Shown here one piece after another: positions 18,381-24,790 of a stretch of DNA of 64,000 bases. The position numbers and the translations under genes were made by a program. A model generated the notes under the pieces. That model was not told the DNA's origin. It worked only from the letters and a program-made list of their open reading frames with translations, and did no database searches. This stretch comes from Hoeflea algicola (GTDB lineage Bacteria; Pseudomonadota; Alphaproteobacteria; Rhizobiales; Rhizobiaceae): the NCBI RefSeq assembly GCF_026619415.1, contig NZ_JAOVZR010000001.1, positions 1,054,001 to 1,118,000 of the forward strand. Reading direction: 5' to 3'. Numbering within the stretch: the stretch's first letter is position 1; each line of letters begins with the position of its first letter.

Positions 18381-21300
18381 ATGCGCATCGACCGACGGTT
18401 CACCAAAGACGGCCAGTCCGCCTACGCAGAAATCGAATTCCGCAAGGCCACGAGCGAGATCAGGAATCCTGACGGCTCCATCGTCTTCCGTCTGGCCGAC
18501 ATTGATGTGCCGGTGCAGTTCAGCCAGGTTGCAGCCGACATTCTGGCACAGAAGTATTTCCGCAAGGCCGGTGTCCCGGCCCGCCTCAAGAAGGTAGAGG
18601 AAAATTCGGTGCCGTCCTGGCTGTGGCGCTCGGTCGCTGATGAAAAGGCCCTCGAAAAGCTTCCCGAAGACGAGCGCTACGGTTCCGAAACCGATGCCCG
18701 TCAGGTGTTTGACCGGCTCGCCGGCACCTGGACCTATTGGGGCTGGAAGGGCGGCTATTTCACCTCCGAGGATGACGCCTGCGCCTTCATGGACGAGCTT
18801 GCCTACATGCTCGCCACCCAGCGCGTTGCCCCCAACTCGCCACAGTGGTTCAATACCGGCCTGCATTGGGCTTACGGCATCGACGGTCCCGGCCAGGGCC
18901 ATTTCTATGTCGACCCGTTCACCGGCAAGCTGAAGAAGTCCGAATCCTCCTACGAGCACCCGCAGCCGCATGCCTGCTTCATCCAGTCGGTCGAGGACGA
19001 TCTCGTCAACGACAACGGCATCATGGATCTGTGGGTGCGTGAGGCACGGCTGTTCAAATACGGTTCCGGCACCGGCTCCAACTTCTCGCATCTGCGCGGC
19101 GAAGGCGAAAAGCTCTCGGGCGGCGGCAAGTCGTCAGGCCTGATGAGCTTCCTCAAGATCGGCGACCGCGCCGCAGGCGCCATCAAGTCGGGCGGCACCA
19201 CCCGCCGTGCAGCCAAGATGGTGGTGGTCGACATCGATCACCCCGATATCGAGGCCTACATCAACTGGAAGGTCAAGGAAGAGCAGAAGGTTGCAGCCCT
19301 CGTCACCGGTTCGAAGATCGTGGCCGTGCACCTCAAGGCGATCATGAAGGCCTGCCTCAACTGCGAGGCCGACAACGACGCCTGCTTCGACCCCAAGCAG
19401 AACCCGGCGCTGAAGCGTGAAATCAAGGCCGCCAAGAAGAACCAGGTGCCTGAAAACTACGTCAAGCGCGTCATCCAGTTTGCCAAGCAGGGCTACACCG
19501 ATATTGAATTCAAGACCTACGACACCGACTGGGATTCGGAAGCCTACCTCACGGTTTCAGGCCAGAACTCCAACAATTCGGTCTCGATCAAGGACGACTT
19601 CCTGCGCGCTGTCGAAACCGACGGCGAATGGCACCTGACCGCCCGCAAGGACGGCAAGATCATGAAGACGCTGAAGGCGCGCGACCTGTGGGAACAGATC
19701 GGCCATGCCGCCTGGGCCTCGGCTGATCCGGGCCTGCACTTCAACACCACCATGAACGACTGGCACACCTGCCCAGCGGAAGGCCCGATCCGCGCCTCCA
19801 ATCCGTGCTCGGAATACATGTTCCTCGACGACACCGCCTGCAACCTGGCCTCGCTCAACCTCTTGCAGTTCAAGGACGCCGACACCAAGCAGATCGATAT
19901 CGCCGATTACGAACACGCCGTCCGGCTCTGGACCATCGTGCTCGAGGTCTCGGTTATGATGGCCCAGTTCCCCTCGCGCCAGATTGCCGAGCAGTCCTAC
20001 AAGTACCGCACCCTGGGTCTGGGCTTTGCCAATATCGGCGGCTTGCTGATGACCACCGGCATTCCCTATGATTCCAAGGAAGGTCGCGCCATCTGCGGTG
20101 CCCTGTCGGCGATCATGACCGGCGTTTCCTACGCCACATCGGCTGAAATGGCCGGCGAGATCGGCCCCTTCGCCGGTTTCAAGGAAAACAAGAAGAACAT
20201 GCTGCGGGTGATCCGCAACCACCGCCGCGCCGCCCATGGCGAAACCGGCGGCTATGAGGACCTGTCGGTCGATCCGGTGGCGCTGATCCATCAGGACTGC
20301 CCCGATCCGGACCTGATCGCCCACGCAACGTCTGCCTGGGACAAGGCGCTGGAGCTCGGTGAAAAACACGGCTACCGCAATGCTCAGGTTTCGGTCGTCG
20401 CGCCAACCGGCACCATCGGCCTAGTGATGGATTGCGACACCACCGGCATCGAGCCTGATTTCGCGCTGGTCAAGTTCAAGAAGTTGGCCGGTGGCGGTTA
20501 CTTCAAGATCATCAACAACGCCGTGCCCGAAGCGCTGCGCACATTGGGCTATTCCGAAGCCCAGTTGGCCGAGATCGAGGCCTATGCGGTCGGTCACGGC
20601 AACATCAATCAGGCGCCGGCCATCAATCCCGGCTCGCTGAAAGCCAAGGGTTTCACCGACGAGAAGATCGAAGCCATCAACGGCGCCACCAAGGCCGCCT
20701 TCGACATCAAGTTCGTGTTCAACAAGTGGACGCTGGGCGAAGACTTCTGCAAGGATGTGCTCGGCCTCACCGACGAGCAGATGAACGACTTTTCCTTCGA
20801 CATGCTGTCGGCCATCGGGTTCGCCAAGAAGGACATCGAAGCCGCCAACATCCATGTTTGCGGGGCGATGACGCTGGAAGGTGCACCGCACCTCAAGGAA
20901 GAGCACTATCCGGTGTTTGATTGCGCCAATCCTTGCGGCAAGGTCGGCAAGCGCTATCTGTCGGTCGACAGCCATATCCGCATGATGGCTGCCGCCCAGC
21001 CGTTCATCTCGGGCGCGATCTCGAAAACCATCAACATGGCCAATGACGCCACCGTCGATGATTGCAAGAACGCCTACATGCTCTCCTGGAAGCTGGCGCT
21101 GAAGGCCAACGCGCTCTACCGCGATGGCTCGAAGCTCAGCCAGCCGCTCAATTCCTCGCTGATCGAGGATGATGAGGACGAGGGCGACGCAATCGAAGCA
21201 CTGGCTGCCCAACCACAAGCAGCCCAGGCTGTCACGGTCACAGAAAAGATCGTCGAACGGGTGGTCGAAAAACTGGTGCACGATCGCGAAAGAATGCCCA

Positions 21301-22190
21301 ACCGGCGCAAGGGCTACACCCAGAAGGCAGTGATCGGCGGCCACAAGGTCTATGTCCACACCGGCGAATATCACGACGGCCGGCTGGGCGAGATCTTCAT
21401 CGACATGCACAAGGAAGGCGCTGCCTTCCGGGCGATGATGAACAATTTCGCCATCGCCATCTCGATCGGCCTGCAATATGGCGTGCCGCTGGAGGAATAT
21501 GTCGAGGCCTTCACCTTCACCCGGTTTGAACCCGCCGGCATGGTTCAGGGCAATGACGCCATCAAGAACGCCACCTCGATCCTCGACTATGTGTTCCGGG
21601 AACTGGCCGTCTCCTATCTCGGCCGCAACGATCTGGCCCATGTCGACATGTCGGACTTCTCCAACACCACGATGGGCAAGGGGATTTCCGAGGGCAAGGC
21701 GAGCCCGTTCTCCAAGGGACTGACCCGTGGCGCCTCGCTCAAGGTCGTTACCGGCCATGGCATTGGCGCAAACTCCGAGCCCAAGGGCCAGGCCGCCAAC
21801 GCCCCCTCCTCCGGCGCCTCGGTGATCACCGGATCGTTCGCCTCCAAGAGTTCTGGCTCGGCCAAGGGATCGGCCAATCTGGCGGTCAAGTCCCAGCCCG
21901 AGGAGATCGAGACCGACGGCGCCATCGCCTTCAGGCGCGATTATGAAGAGCGTGCCGAGGAACTGGCCGCCGAAATCGCGCTGGTCGAAAACGAGGCGGA
22001 AGAGCTGTTCTCCGACATCGCCGAATCCGAGGCCCGCGACGCCAAGGCCAAGGCCGCCGCCCGCCGCGCCCGGTCCCTCGCCCAGGGCTACACCGGCAAC
22101 ATGTGCACCGAATGCCAGAACTTCACCATGGTGCGCAACGGCACCTGCGAGAAGTGCGACACCTGCGGGGCAACGAGCGGGTGCAGCTAG
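18381..22190 (+). CDS. nrdJ: Adenosylcobalamin-dependent ribonucleoside-diphosphate reductase
   Basis: A 1269-residue class II ribonucleotide reductase of the long NrdJ type. SPQWFNTG lies near 154-161; the active-site triad N-x-C-x-E is in [12 protein letters not shown] (N474, C476, E478); VAPTGTIG follows near 675-682. The C-terminus has paired CxxC motifs (MCTECQ, then CEKCDTCG) that act as the redox-active or metal-binding tail. It makes deoxyribonucleotides with B12 and needs no oxygen, and is the usual sole or main reductase of Hyphomicrobiales. AAAGAGG precedes the ATG at 18381. Probable NrdR boxes and a foldable leader lie upstream. Confidence 0.97.
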
Positions 22191-22299: not shown

Positions 22300-23043
22300 A
22301 TGACGATACGAACAGCAGAGGAAGCTCTACAGCGGTACAAAGAGAAAATGGGAGATGAGTTGGGCTCCACTTTTCATTTGTGCTTACAGGAATTGTATTG
22401 GGTATCAAGCACATGGGATATCCACGAGACTTTGTTCCATGATTCGAACACAGTTGAACTCATCAATAGTGCCAATGGTGGCGTGTCCTTTGCAATCCAA
22501 ACCGTGTTTTTTGAATATGTCCAACTGGGCGTTTGCCGCTTAACGGACCCGGCTACGCAGAGGAAATCCAAAAACCTCACAGTCCGAGCATTACCGGATT
22601 TGGTCATCGAAGATTTAAAACTTGAGATCGATCAGCTTGTCTCAGAATCTCTCAAAGCGACGGAGGCTGCGCGGGACTGGCGAAACAGAAAAATTAGTCA
22701 CAGCGATTTTCACCTCAAGGCGTCTCAAGCGAAGCCATTGAAGTCCACGAGCAGGATTGCAACAACCGAAGCTATTGCGCGAATTCATCGTGTTCTTCAA
22801 CCGATTGCCTTGCACTACTGTGAGACGAATTTGATTTTGCCTGAGCTCGGTGACAATAATGCCATGAGCTTTTTGCTCCATCTGTTCGCTGGCCAACAGA
22901 AAAAAGAGGCCGATTTAGAAGCGGTAAAAAGCAGGGATTATAAAACTCTTGAGAACAGATTCCCGGATTGGCTAAAAAGGCATGGCTCCATGGGAACTCG
23001 ATACGATTTGGATCGCATATTGAAGGTTCCGCGAGAACATTGA
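22300..23043 (+). CDS. HEPN-motif protein of unknown function (possibly AbiU2-like)
   Basis: A 247-residue protein whose codon use and base composition are visibly AT-richer than the genes around it, indicating transfer. I do not recognise it firmly. Residues 126-136 (DWRNRKISHSD) contain RN-x4-H (R128, N129, H134), the catalytic pattern of HEPN-domain RNases, in a mainly alpha-helical context; the overall look recalls AbiU2-type HEPN proteins. HEPN proteins are frequent toxins and phage-defence effectors. No antitoxin or nucleotidyltransferase partner gene is adjacent, so it would have to act alone or be regulated otherwise. It sits between the nrdJ terminator hairpin and the repeat array. 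Confidence 0.6.
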   Translation: MTIRTAEEALQRYKEKMGDELGSTFHLCLQELYWVSSTWDIHETLFHDSNTVELINSANGGVSFAIQTVFFEYVQLGVCRLTDPATQRKSKNLTVRALPDLVIEDLKLEIDQLVSESLKATEAARDWRNRKISHSDFHLKASQAKPLKSTSRIATTEAIARIHRVLQPIALHYCETNLILPELGDNNAMSFLLHLFAGQQKKEADLEAVKSRDYKTLENRFPDWLKRHGSMGTRYDLDRILKVPREH

Positions 23044-23051
23044 ACGCGCGC

Positions 23052-23221
23052 CCTCACCTGAAATTTCTAGGACTTATCCCGCGGCTAAGATGCTGATTGC
23101 TTCCTCTCCCAAATTGGGAAGAGGAGAAGACGGAAAACGCGGCACGCTCCCTCTCCCTTGGTGGGAGAGGACACAAAATCGCGGCCTTAGCGCAGCTAAG
23201 TCGCAGATTTTGTTGGTGAGG
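23052..23221. repeat. 170-bp interspersed repeat, left copy
   Basis: Begins near CCTCACCTGAAATTT and ends at TTGGTGAGGGGG. It contains the hairpins CTCTCCC/GGGAGAG (around 23150-23170) and CTTAGC/GCTAAG (around 23186-23201). A clearly related direct copy lies at 24611-24790 with substitutions and small indels throughout. The two bracket the palindrome/GIY-YIG array. Confidence 0.8.
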
Positions 23222-23249
23222 GGGTCACGCAACACTCGCCTCCATCATA

Positions 23250-23308
23250 CCGGACTTGATCCGGGATCCAGCCACCGCGCGTTGGTGCGGTCAGAGACGA
23301 TTCGTCCA
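23250..23308. repeat. Palindromic repeat of the CCGGACTTGATCCGG type
   Basis: Contains CCGGACTTGATCCGG followed by CCAGCCACCGCGC and a GTGCGG arm that can pair. The same combination recurs at 40781-40838 with substitutions, so it belongs to a dispersed family. It lies just left of the first palindrome doublet. Confidence 0.7.
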
Positions 23309-23320
23309 CACCCCCACATT

Positions 23321-23458
23321 ACGGAATGGATCCTCGGCTCGAAGGCCGAGGATGACGACGGGGAAAGTGAACCAGGACGATAGTCAGATGCTGCCGAGAC
23401 AGACGATTCCCCCGGACTTCGTCATCCTAGGGCTCCGACCCTAGGATCCATTCCGTGA
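23321..23458. repeat. REPIN-like inverted palindrome doublet 1
   Basis: Left hairpin 23330-23353 (ATCCTCGGC, 6-nt loop, GCCGAGGAT) and right hairpin 23424-23447 (ATCCTAGGG, 6-nt loop, CCCTAGGAT), 70 nt apart and in inverted orientation: the outer flanks are CGGAATGG on the left and CCATTCCG on the right. Stem sequences differ between the two hairpins by paired changes that keep the pairing. Confidence 0.85.
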
Positions 23459-23510
23459 TCCCACAGCACGGCAAGACCCATCGCAGGGCAAGGGTCCGAT
23501 TACATTGGCC

Positions 23511-23600
23511 CATCACCACCCGGTGCCGCTAAACAATTCAAACCAATCCGGATTGGACTTCTCTACGAGATTAACCGTCCGTTGTTACGGCCAGCGCTTG
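23511..23600 (-). pseudogene. GIY-YIG nuclease gene remnant 1 (3' end only)
   Basis: About 90 bp align with 24173-24262, the last 29 or so codons of the intact GIY-YIG gene, at roughly 80 percent identity by eye (for example the shared stretch AAACAATTCAAACCA). Homology stops at CCAGCGCTTG, where the intact gene continues with its catalytic middle part but the remnant continues into unrelated sequence. The catalytic N-terminus is missing, so it cannot encode a nuclease. Confidence 0.75.
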
Positions 23601-23660
23601 CCCCACCTCTGACACTAGAACGCGGCATACAGGCAGCTCAGTTTCTCACGCAACAGCACG

Positions 23661-23790
23661 GGATGGATCCTCGGCTCGGAGGCCGAGGATGACGACGGGG
23701 AGAATGCCAGGACGATAGTCATATGGTGCCGAGACGATTCCCCCGGACTTCGTCATCCTAGGGCTCCGACCCAGGGATCCATTCCGTGAT
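23661..23790. repeat. REPIN-like inverted palindrome doublet 2
   Basis: Left hairpin 23667-23690 (perfect 9-bp stem) and right hairpin 23755-23778 (ATCCTAGGG with CCCAGGGAT, one mismatch and one wobble), spacer 64 nt, same inverted arrangement and outer flanks as doublet 1. Confidence 0.85.
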
Positions 23791-23841
23791 CCCGCAGCAC
23801 GGCAAGACCCATCGCAGGGCAAGGGTCCGATTACATTGGCC

Positions 23842-23931
23842 CATTACCACCCGGTGCCGCGAAACAATTCAAACCGATCCGGATTGGACTTCTCTATGAG
23901 ATTGTCCGTCCGTTGTTACGGCCAGCGCTCG
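23842..23931 (-). pseudogene. GIY-YIG nuclease gene remnant 2 (3' end only)
   Basis: A second copy of the same truncated 3' segment, 331 bp after the first, ending at the same breakpoint (CCAGCGCTCG). It is closer to remnant 1 than to the intact gene, so the truncated form was duplicated after truncation. Confidence 0.75.
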
Positions 23932-23991
23932 CCCCACCTCTCACACTAGAACGCGGCATACAGGCAGCTCAATTTCTCACGCAACAGCACG

Positions 23992-24122
23992 GGATGGATC
24001 CTCGGCTGGGAGGCCGAGGATGACGACGGGGAGAATGAGCCAGGACGACGGTCAGATGGTGCCAAGACGATTCCCCCACACTTCGTCATCCTAGGGCCCC
24101 GACCCTAGGATCCATTCCGTGA
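23992..24122. repeat. REPIN-like inverted palindrome doublet 3
   Basis: Left hairpin 23998-24021 and right hairpin 24088-24111, both with perfect 9-bp stems; spacer 66 nt. Its right end lies about 60 bp beyond the stop codon of the intact GIY-YIG gene. Confidence 0.85.
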
Positions 24123-24175
24123 TCCCGCAGCACGGCAAGCCCCATCGTCGGACACAGCGTTAATCGCACTGGTCA

Positions 24176-24463
24176 TCACCAACCGGTACCGCGAAACAAT
24201 TCAAACCAGTCCGGATTGGTCTTTTCGATCAGTTCGATCTTCCACTGCCGCGGCCAGCGCTTGAGCGATTTCTCACGCTGGATGGCATCGCGGATATCGA
24301 AATGCTCCTCATACCAGACCAGTCGCCGCACGCCGTAACGGTTGGTGAAGCGCGATCCGGTTCCAGCCACATGTTCAGGCACGCGACGGCCCAGATCATT
24401 GGTCACGCCGATATAAATGGTCCCGCCCTTCCGGCTGGCGAGCATGTAGACATACCCCGCCAT
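24176..24463 (-). CDS. Single-domain GIY-YIG endonuclease (intact copy)
   Basis: A 95-residue protein consisting only of a GIY-YIG nuclease fold. GYVYMLASRKGGTIYIGVTN (3-22) holds the name motif; R26/R27 and H31 (LGRRVPEH) and E64 (QREKSLKRW) are the expected catalytic and metal-binding residues. Family length is 90-100, so it is complete. Cellular function of this stand-alone group is unknown. The ATG at 24463 was chosen over an upstream TTG because the domain begins there; no strong ribosome binding site is seen. It is flanked by palindromes on both sides and preceded in the array by two truncated copies of itself. Confidence 0.88.
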   Translation of the reverse strand: MAGYVYMLASRKGGTIYIGVTNDLGRRVPEHVAGTGSRFTNRYGVRRLVWYEEHFDIRDAIQREKSLKRWPRQWKIELIEKTNPDWFELFRGTGW

Positions 24464-24492
24464 CGGCAAAAGATACCGCAAGTTGCAACATC

Positions 24493-24540
24493 ACGGAATG
24501 GATCCTCGGCTCGGTGGCCGAGGATGACGACGGAGAGTGT
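24493..24540. repeat. Single palindrome upstream of the GIY-YIG gene
   Basis: Hairpin 24502-24525 (ATCCTCGGC, 6-nt loop, GCCGAGGAT) with the left-type flank ACGGAATGG. Homology with the doublets continues about 30 bp past the hairpin and then ends, so the right half of a doublet is missing. It lies about 30 bp upstream of the nuclease start codon. Confidence 0.85.
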
Positions 24541-24610
24541 GAACCCGGACGACGGCGGGGACTGAGAACGGCGACGGAGCGGTGGAAGCCGGACAAGGAC
24601 GGCGCAATCG

Positions 24611-24790
24611 CCTCACGTGCAATTCCCAGCACTTAGCCTGCGGCTAAGGCGCTGAAATTGCTTCCTCTCCCACAATGGGGAGAGCCAAATTTGGCAAACA
24701 CGCGGCACCCTACCTCTCCCTTGGTAGGAGAGGATACAAAAAAACCGCGACCTTAGCGTAGCTAAGTCGCAGATATTGTTGGTGAGGGGT
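24611..24790. repeat. 170-bp interspersed repeat, right copy
   Basis: Direct copy of 23052-23221 with substitutions: the same order of CTCTCCC hairpins, CTTAGC/GCTAAG hairpin (CCTTAGCGTAGCTAAGTCGC) and TTGGTGAGGGG end. The 364 bp between the GIY-YIG start and the next gene hold this copy, the single palindrome and no gene. Confidence 0.8.

Follow-up and report, generated by a model that had tools for sequence, protein, structure and literature searches.

Between positions 23327 and 24529 of the window, by which we mean the whole 64,000-nucleotide stretch of Hoeflea algicola DNA that was analysed, a scan of the sequence finds seven palindromes with 9-bp stems and 6-nt loops, interspersed with an intact GIY-YIG nuclease gene and two remnants of such a gene. 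The hairpin cores lie at 23330-23353, 23424-23447, 23667-23690, 23755-23778 (with one mismatched stem pair), 23998-24021, 24088-24111, and 24502-24525. Each palindrome forms part of a 31-nt element, here termed REP, that consists of a CGTC tag, a 9-bp stem starting with AT, a 6-nt loop, and a CCA tail. Minus-strand REPs carry the stem CCTCGGC and plus-strand REPs the stem CCTAGGG, one of them imperfect. The 31-nt pattern matches the window exactly six times and 100 shuffles of it not at all. These components agree with a preliminary description of this DNA, which had grouped the palindromes into three doublets with spacers of 64-70 nt; in our scan the three gaps measure 70, 64, and 66 nt.

The repeating unit in the window is a tags-outward pair of REPs framing a GIY-YIG gene, present once intact, twice with a truncated gene, and once as a lone end. 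Read along the gene, the order is REP, intact gene, and inverted REP, then a spacer, two successive sets of REP, remnant, and inverted REP with a spacer between them, a further spacer, and the lone REP. The intact unit 3 (24084..24529) comprises a plus-strand REP (24084-24114), the gene, and a minus-strand REP (24499-24529), with the tags pointing outward and the tails inward. Beyond the spacer at 24026..24083, unit 2 (23751..24025) holds the mismatched plus-strand REP (23751-23781), a minus-strand gene remnant at about 23847-23954, and a minus-strand REP (23995-24025). The spacer at 23695..23750 leads to unit 1 (23420..23694), composed of a plus-strand REP (23420-23450), a minus-strand 3' remnant of the GIY-YIG gene at about 23516-23611, and a minus-strand REP (23664-23694). 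Past the last spacer (23358..23419), which is the interior of the first doublet of the preliminary description, the lone minus-strand CGTC REP (23327..23357; tag at 23357, tail at 23327) matches the pattern exactly and is the right end of a unit otherwise missing.

At least part of the array is the product of tandem duplication. Units 1 and 2 are 96% alike across a 300-nt repeat that includes the truncated gene, so the unit was broken before its tandem copy arose. In a relative (G109), a locus of this kind contains three near-full-length gene copies, one with a stop, so that the remnants in the window are naturally read as decayed tandem copies of the gene.

Five loci of the Hoeflea group (L017, L018, L019, L024, and L098) align to the flanks of the window array on one or both sides, the alignments reaching the end of the large ORF 18381-22190, which from reading we take to be a ribonucleotide reductase, and/or the DUF6481 gene region or repeats beside DUF6481. 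Adjoining the array, the plus-strand ORF 22300-23043 contains a HEPN_AbiU2 domain (PF18734, 45.2 bits) and is possibly an abortive-infection gene. The whole array is bracketed by direct copies of about 175 bp that belong to another repeat family (23051-23227 and 24604-24789) and also occur in L024 and L098. By eye, a decayed REP of another type (CCGGA), with the tag CATC, can be recognized at 23243-23271, although a GIY-YIG search of the own genome gave only the window gene and one 700-aa frame. Rfam families were absent from the array at E <= 1.

The nuclease gene (24176..24463, minus strand, stop included) encodes 95 amino acids from an ATG at 24463. Its ORF extends open to a TTG at 24481, yet the ATG is the likely start because most aligned homologues begin at the equivalent position. 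The preliminary description had placed half a doublet some 30 bp before the start; a hairpin is indeed found there, but at a distance of 35 bp from the likely ATG and 17 bp from the TTG of the ORF. With a PF01541 match of 61.7 bits (cut-off 22.6), the protein belongs to the GIY-YIG superfamily, and the earlier call of an intact single-domain gene holds. Residues Y12, G25, R33, E70, and N89 are invariant in 27 homologues and Y23 is nearly so; R33, E70, N89, and Y23 are presumably catalytic, judging by their roles in I-TevI. The gene is evidently under purifying selection: when six orthologues are compared in 15 pairs, dN/dS is estimated at 0.03-0.15. A confident AlphaFold2 model (pLDDT 88.8) has as its best PDB match the UPF0213 structure 1zg2, followed weakly by Slx1; the GIY-YIG fold is what the protein has in common with UPF0213 (1zg2, 1ywl) and, through weak matches, with Slx1.

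The same REPs occur elsewhere in the genome and the genus. Searching the own genome with the 31-nt pattern at up to 3 mismatches returned 14 sites, of which seven lie in the array, six form three pairs, and one appears chance-like; the reversed pattern, used as a control, gave zero sites in the same genome. All three gene-less pairs (C1:1246205, 2998070, and 3443980) have outward tags and inward tails. Across 18 genomes of the genus we counted 136 REP sites (up to 2 mismatches), 28 of them at gene loci. Gene-less pairs of about 107 bp are dispersed across these genomes: of 31 close pairs located away from the gene, 29 point their tags outward, and in 28 of these the start-to-start spacing is 75-79 bp. 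Close pairs at gene loci are reversed in 10 of 12 cases, being junctions between units. The tails-out doublets that the preliminary description had regarded as the unit are such junctions, and we rejected the doublet as a mobile unit on the grounds that its orientation is opposite to that of the dispersed pairs.

One pair of the own genome (stray pair 1) has a counterpart at the orthologous site in G103. The comparison of this place covered G103 and 13 other fetched genomes, with three genus members outside it. No REP was found by the detector in 11 of the 13, although in one of these, G112, inspection by eye reveals what looks like a decayed REP. In G110 a REP pair lies on the far side of the neighbouring gene, and G116 has pairs of the B type introduced below. 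G112 also contains ten copies of a variant REP with the loop region CCGTCGTG and a CTA or CTG tail, several of them in direct orientation. A repeat of about 540 bp (L009, ~860-1405), covered by no Rfam family, occurs in many copies in many genus genomes, often with REP pairs directly downstream. At L249/L250 in G046, two REP pairs lie about 8 kb apart with spacers that by eye are near reverse complements, which suggests an inversion between hairpins.

The association between gene and REPs recurs widely, in many genera and with differing stems. We assembled 143 homologous loci from three gene searches, none selected for repeats. The first search dropped the fragments G095:C172 and G073:C56, the neighbour G007:C26:174107, and the own genome. 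From the second we used 49 genomes, all from outside the family and taken in order of rank. G285 was skipped because of an internal stop and G351 because of a contig end, and a contig end in G343 led us to use a lower-ranked place there. The third added the 28 best-ranked non-alphaproteobacterial genomes and 8 further alphaproteobacterial loci; its nine own-family rows were counted apart and showed a REP in 7 of 9. The family set amounts to 58 loci, with some genomes contributing two or three, and it shares the genus loci L098 and L189/L266 with the genus rows. Class and phylum of the surveyed G genomes are kinship labels.

With our main detector, which accepts CGTC REPs with loops of 3-40 nt within 600 bp of the gene, 93 of the 143 homologues have a REP nearby (43/58 in the family, 32/57 elsewhere in the class, and 18/28 in the rest of the phylum), and 50 have none by this detector. 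A first detector restricted to short loops had given 38/58, 31/57, and 18/28, respectively. Shuffles of the surveyed stretches contained a REP in 1 of 1430 cases. The control was another GIY-YIG subfamily from related genomes, only weakly similar to this one, which may or may not be UPF0213 itself; a REP lay nearby at 0 of its 24 genes. This comparison sustains the earlier proposal that the nuclease family is tied to the palindromes by position. REP density, measured with the short-loop detector, is 3.9 per kb up to 100 bp from the gene and, at distances greater than 600 bp, 0-0.22 per kb in every 100-bp bin. Stems vary among genomes. One stem position was unconstrained in the search pattern, and the bases there are still complementary in 112 of 113 copies from the fetched loci, counting copies whose surroundings differ; the paired stem changes remarked on in the preliminary description are therefore real.

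The reading by which the link is chance or hitchhiking, with the gene merely sitting in repeat-rich intergenic DNA, could draw on the copies of another repeat that flank the array (23051-23227, 24604-24789). We rejected it in view of the shuffles, the control subfamily (0/24), and the steep density gradient; with the link present in many genera and different stems, its probability is close to nil. A second reading holds that the hairpins are terminators or mRNA-end structures for the nuclease gene and its neighbours, so that the link reflects expression. In keeping with such a role, the four single window hairpins that we examined are more stably folded than their shuffles (z -2.7 to -3.7), and one is placed downstream of the gene. 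However, another hairpin precedes the start by 17-35 bp, conservation extends beyond the stem to tag and tail, and the other GIY-YIG subfamily lacks such hairpins at all 24 loci, which makes this reading very improbable.

Arrangement around the gene is less uniform over the 143 loci than in the window. By the short-loop detector, the nearest upstream REP is '>' in 42 loci and '<' in 23, the nearest downstream REP is '<' in 33 and '>' in 31, and REPs on both sides of the gene are present in only 42 of 143. The orientation REP > gene < REP is thus not general, and in L064 and L090 all REPs point in the same direction. In the flanks of L116 and L295, REPs of two stems alternate with regular spacing beside the gene.

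The framed arrangement is common in a set of 77 named loci, mostly from Mesorhizobium, 54 of which contain a REP-gene-REP unit; 49 of these 54 units measure 505-526 bp. The nearest upstream REP is '>' in 62 loci against 6 in the reverse orientation, and the nearest downstream REP is '<' in 59 against 7. Loops of Mesorhizobium REPs are mostly 28-31 nt. We had considered Mesorhizobium an exception, with REPs of loops up to 8 nt in 9 of the 77 loci, and dropped this idea once allowing long loops raised the count to 74. Inverted repeats at the ends of a one-gene unit, a trait of insertion sequences, are accordingly present in 54 of 77 named loci and once in the window.

Evidence on mobility came from 33 flank pairings of the named loci, in which neither a clean empty site nor a target duplication was found. 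Twenty-five pairings were filled (at least 5 being one locus fetched twice), 6 were of other kinds, and 2 were short; of the short pairings, one represents a solo-hairpin derivative, and in the second the gap consists of unrelated sequence inside another repeat. In the solo-hairpin case, L022 carries a full unit, and at the matching L073 site there is a single hairpin bordered by CGTC and GACG; the alignments of the two flanks (87% over 110 bp and 79% over 115 bp) reach the hairpin borders. This pair of loci marks the borders of the unit and, from the alignment, looks like an internal deletion or the reverse. Gene copies within the same genome are only 81-96% identical in seven Mesorhizobium assemblies, and hence show no sign of recent transposition of the gene. 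Together with the mostly shared positions of the units, these identities make the gene-bearing unit look old and vertically inherited.

We compared REP numbers with gene presence in 101 Rhizobiaceae genomes, scoring the gene as present at E <= 1e-15 and using a pattern that covers CCTNGG stems only. Of the 45 genomes with the gene, 25 contain at least two palindromes that share a stem class, compared with 6 of the 56 without it (Fisher p = 1.3e-6). The preliminary description had expected palindromes to accompany the gene and to fall to near zero where it is missing; the first part agrees with these counts, and the second does not. G097 has 41 REPs and G004 has 19, the sole GIY-YIG found in both being UvrC-sized, and G041 has 13 with only a gene of the weak subfamily. 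Likewise, 9 of the 11 genus members without the window gene keep 1-19 copies of its REP, ten of the 19 in G112 being the variant.

Paralogues permit a finer comparison. In the genus, gene A (the window gene) and gene B (about 57% identical) are flanked by different REPs. We counted gene B as the paralogue in G046, G104, G106, G109, G112, and G116, leaving aside a 52%-identical copy in G107, and REP B with a pattern for the 29-nt form only. REP A averages 11.6 copies with gene A versus 5.0 without it (one-sided Mann-Whitney p = 0.005), a difference that is modest outside the gene locus (7.6 versus 5.0, p = 0.046), and REP B 11.7 with gene B versus 3.7 without it (p = 0.044), while the cross tests of REP A with gene B and REP B with gene A are flat (p 0.54 and 0.52); all these p values are optimistic because the genomes are related, and the sample is small. 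The number of each REP type thus modestly tracks its own gene within the genus. Nine genomes have at least two such genes; among their 13 paralogue comparisons, 9 show two or more differing stem bases, and in the remaining 4 the nearest stems are 0 or 1 base apart.

The palindromes have a published counterpart. In the 2013 paper by Di Nocera et al. (PMC3733652), CGTC-tagged REPs are described as widespread in Alphaproteobacteria, as "apparently" without a dedicated transposase, and as a superfamily that includes neisserial dRS3 and rickettsial RPE-4 and RPE-6. The window elements share with them the CGTC tag, the AT-first stem of 8-9 bp, and the CCA tail that define these REPs there, and, as here, the described elements form mostly inverted pairs and are found mainly in Alphaproteobacteria (PMC3733652). 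The tabulated loop is 4-5 nt, compared with 6 nt in the window and mostly 28-31 nt in Mesorhizobium; there the shorter loop is typical rather than defining, and some species have other loops (PMC3733652). The paper found no dedicated enzyme and closes with the enzyme behind CGTC REPs unnamed, whereas a GIY-YIG gene is the recurrent neighbour in our survey (PMC3733652).

REPIN/RAYT systems are similar in several respects: small palindromes with a tetranucleotide tag that form regularly spaced, dispersed inverted pairs (PMC3116915, PMC8266576, PMC8049555), tandem clusters beside the enzyme gene with an own REP type per paralogue (PMC3116915), and vertical inheritance of the enzyme (PMC8049555). 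E. coli TnpA-REP recognizes single-stranded REPs and needs the GTAG tag, with other TnpA-REPs tolerating tag changes better (PMC8266576). Regularly spaced, dispersed inverted pairs with the same REPs at the enzyme gene are likewise found here. The tag, however, is GTAG in those systems and CGTC in the window, and the enzyme is a Y1 HUH transposase there and a GIY-YIG protein here. By membership, the window system is therefore not REPIN/RAYT. GIY-YIG and HUH enzymes differ in fold and chemistry, the former being nucleases that form no covalent tyrosine link.

A further parallel concerns Neisseria. Ssn nucleases, reportedly described in 2025, are GIY-YIG enzymes said to form a widespread family, to cut single-stranded DNA site-specifically at a repeat of Neisseria, and to modulate transformation. 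Ssn is a single-domain GIY-YIG protein linked to a neisserial repeat, and the window protein has a relative in such a setting: a homologue in the gonococcus, with 49% identity over 90 aa (E 4e-30), is encoded within a CGTC-repeat array, with repeats on both sides. A link between enzyme and repeat is therefore probably already known for Neisseria and perhaps beyond. Apparently new, although the Ssn report may already cover some of this, are the identity with the CGTC-REP superfamily across the phylum, the REP-gene-REP unit, and the accompanying gene-less pairs. Neisserial CGTC-1 elements are equated with dRS3 in PMC3733652. In the open-licence literature we found no published GIY-YIG/REP link, although one may still be in print, and the available portion of PMC1564403 makes no mention of palindromes.

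These parallels bear on the reading that the protein is a sequence-specific nuclease kept for host benefit, which uses REPs as marks and trims or steers REP-bearing single-stranded DNA during uptake or recombination, the REPs having spread by other means. Besides the reported role of the Ssn family and the gonococcal homologue in its repeat array, the purifying selection, the shared positions of units, and the persistence of REPs without the gene would all fit. On its own, however, this reading would leave unexplained that paralogues mostly have their own flanking REP type, and it does not account for the uniform dispersed pairs and the units resembling insertion sequences. We consider it less likely than not.

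We lean instead, with some caution, towards a CGTC-REP/GIY-YIG system in which the REP-framed nuclease cuts REP hairpins and perhaps thereby spreads REP pairs; the GIY-YIG nuclease is probably the long-missing partner that recognizes CGTC REPs. By the chemistry of the family and by analogy with E. coli TnpA-REP, the nuclease would recognize the CGTC tag and hairpin in single-stranded DNA, as arises on the lagging strand, in repair, or during DNA uptake, and would cut there. Less certainly, the cut may allow a REP pair, sometimes with the gene, to be copied or recombined into new places. This step is modelled on the presumed role of RAYTs for GTAG REPs, and the dispersed pairs would then be dependants of the gene. 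Once placed, a gene-bearing unit would mostly be inherited vertically. The furthest version of this proposal, which we put forward tentatively and hold to be somewhat short of an even chance, is that CGTC REPs represent a second, independent REP world, in which a domesticated GIY-YIG nuclease copies or recombines hairpin repeats in place of an HUH transposase. Hoeflea and Mesorhizobium would harbour its autonomous form resembling an insertion sequence (about 450-525 bp overall, made up of hairpin ends and one gene of roughly 290 bp), with the gene-less pairs as its dependants.

The surveys name a candidate enzyme for CGTC REPs, and the paralogues receive candidate targets of their own. Should the nuclease move the repeats, REPs would have arisen twice, with unrelated enzymes; should it not, a role would still be needed for a conserved nuclease whose matching hairpins number up to dozens in a genome.

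A protein search also matched 40 plasmid-collection and 3 phage records. Among five plasmid-collection stretches, three have CGTC REPs by the gene, and those from Novosphingobium and Planktothrix have none. On the Planktothrix agardhii plasmid (L376), where the detector finds no CGTC REPs, the homologue lies between an MmeI-type restriction gene and the DISARM gene drmA. On an Azospirillum lipoferum plasmid (L373), the homologue and three REPs are situated between sufB and sufC, splitting the suf cluster.
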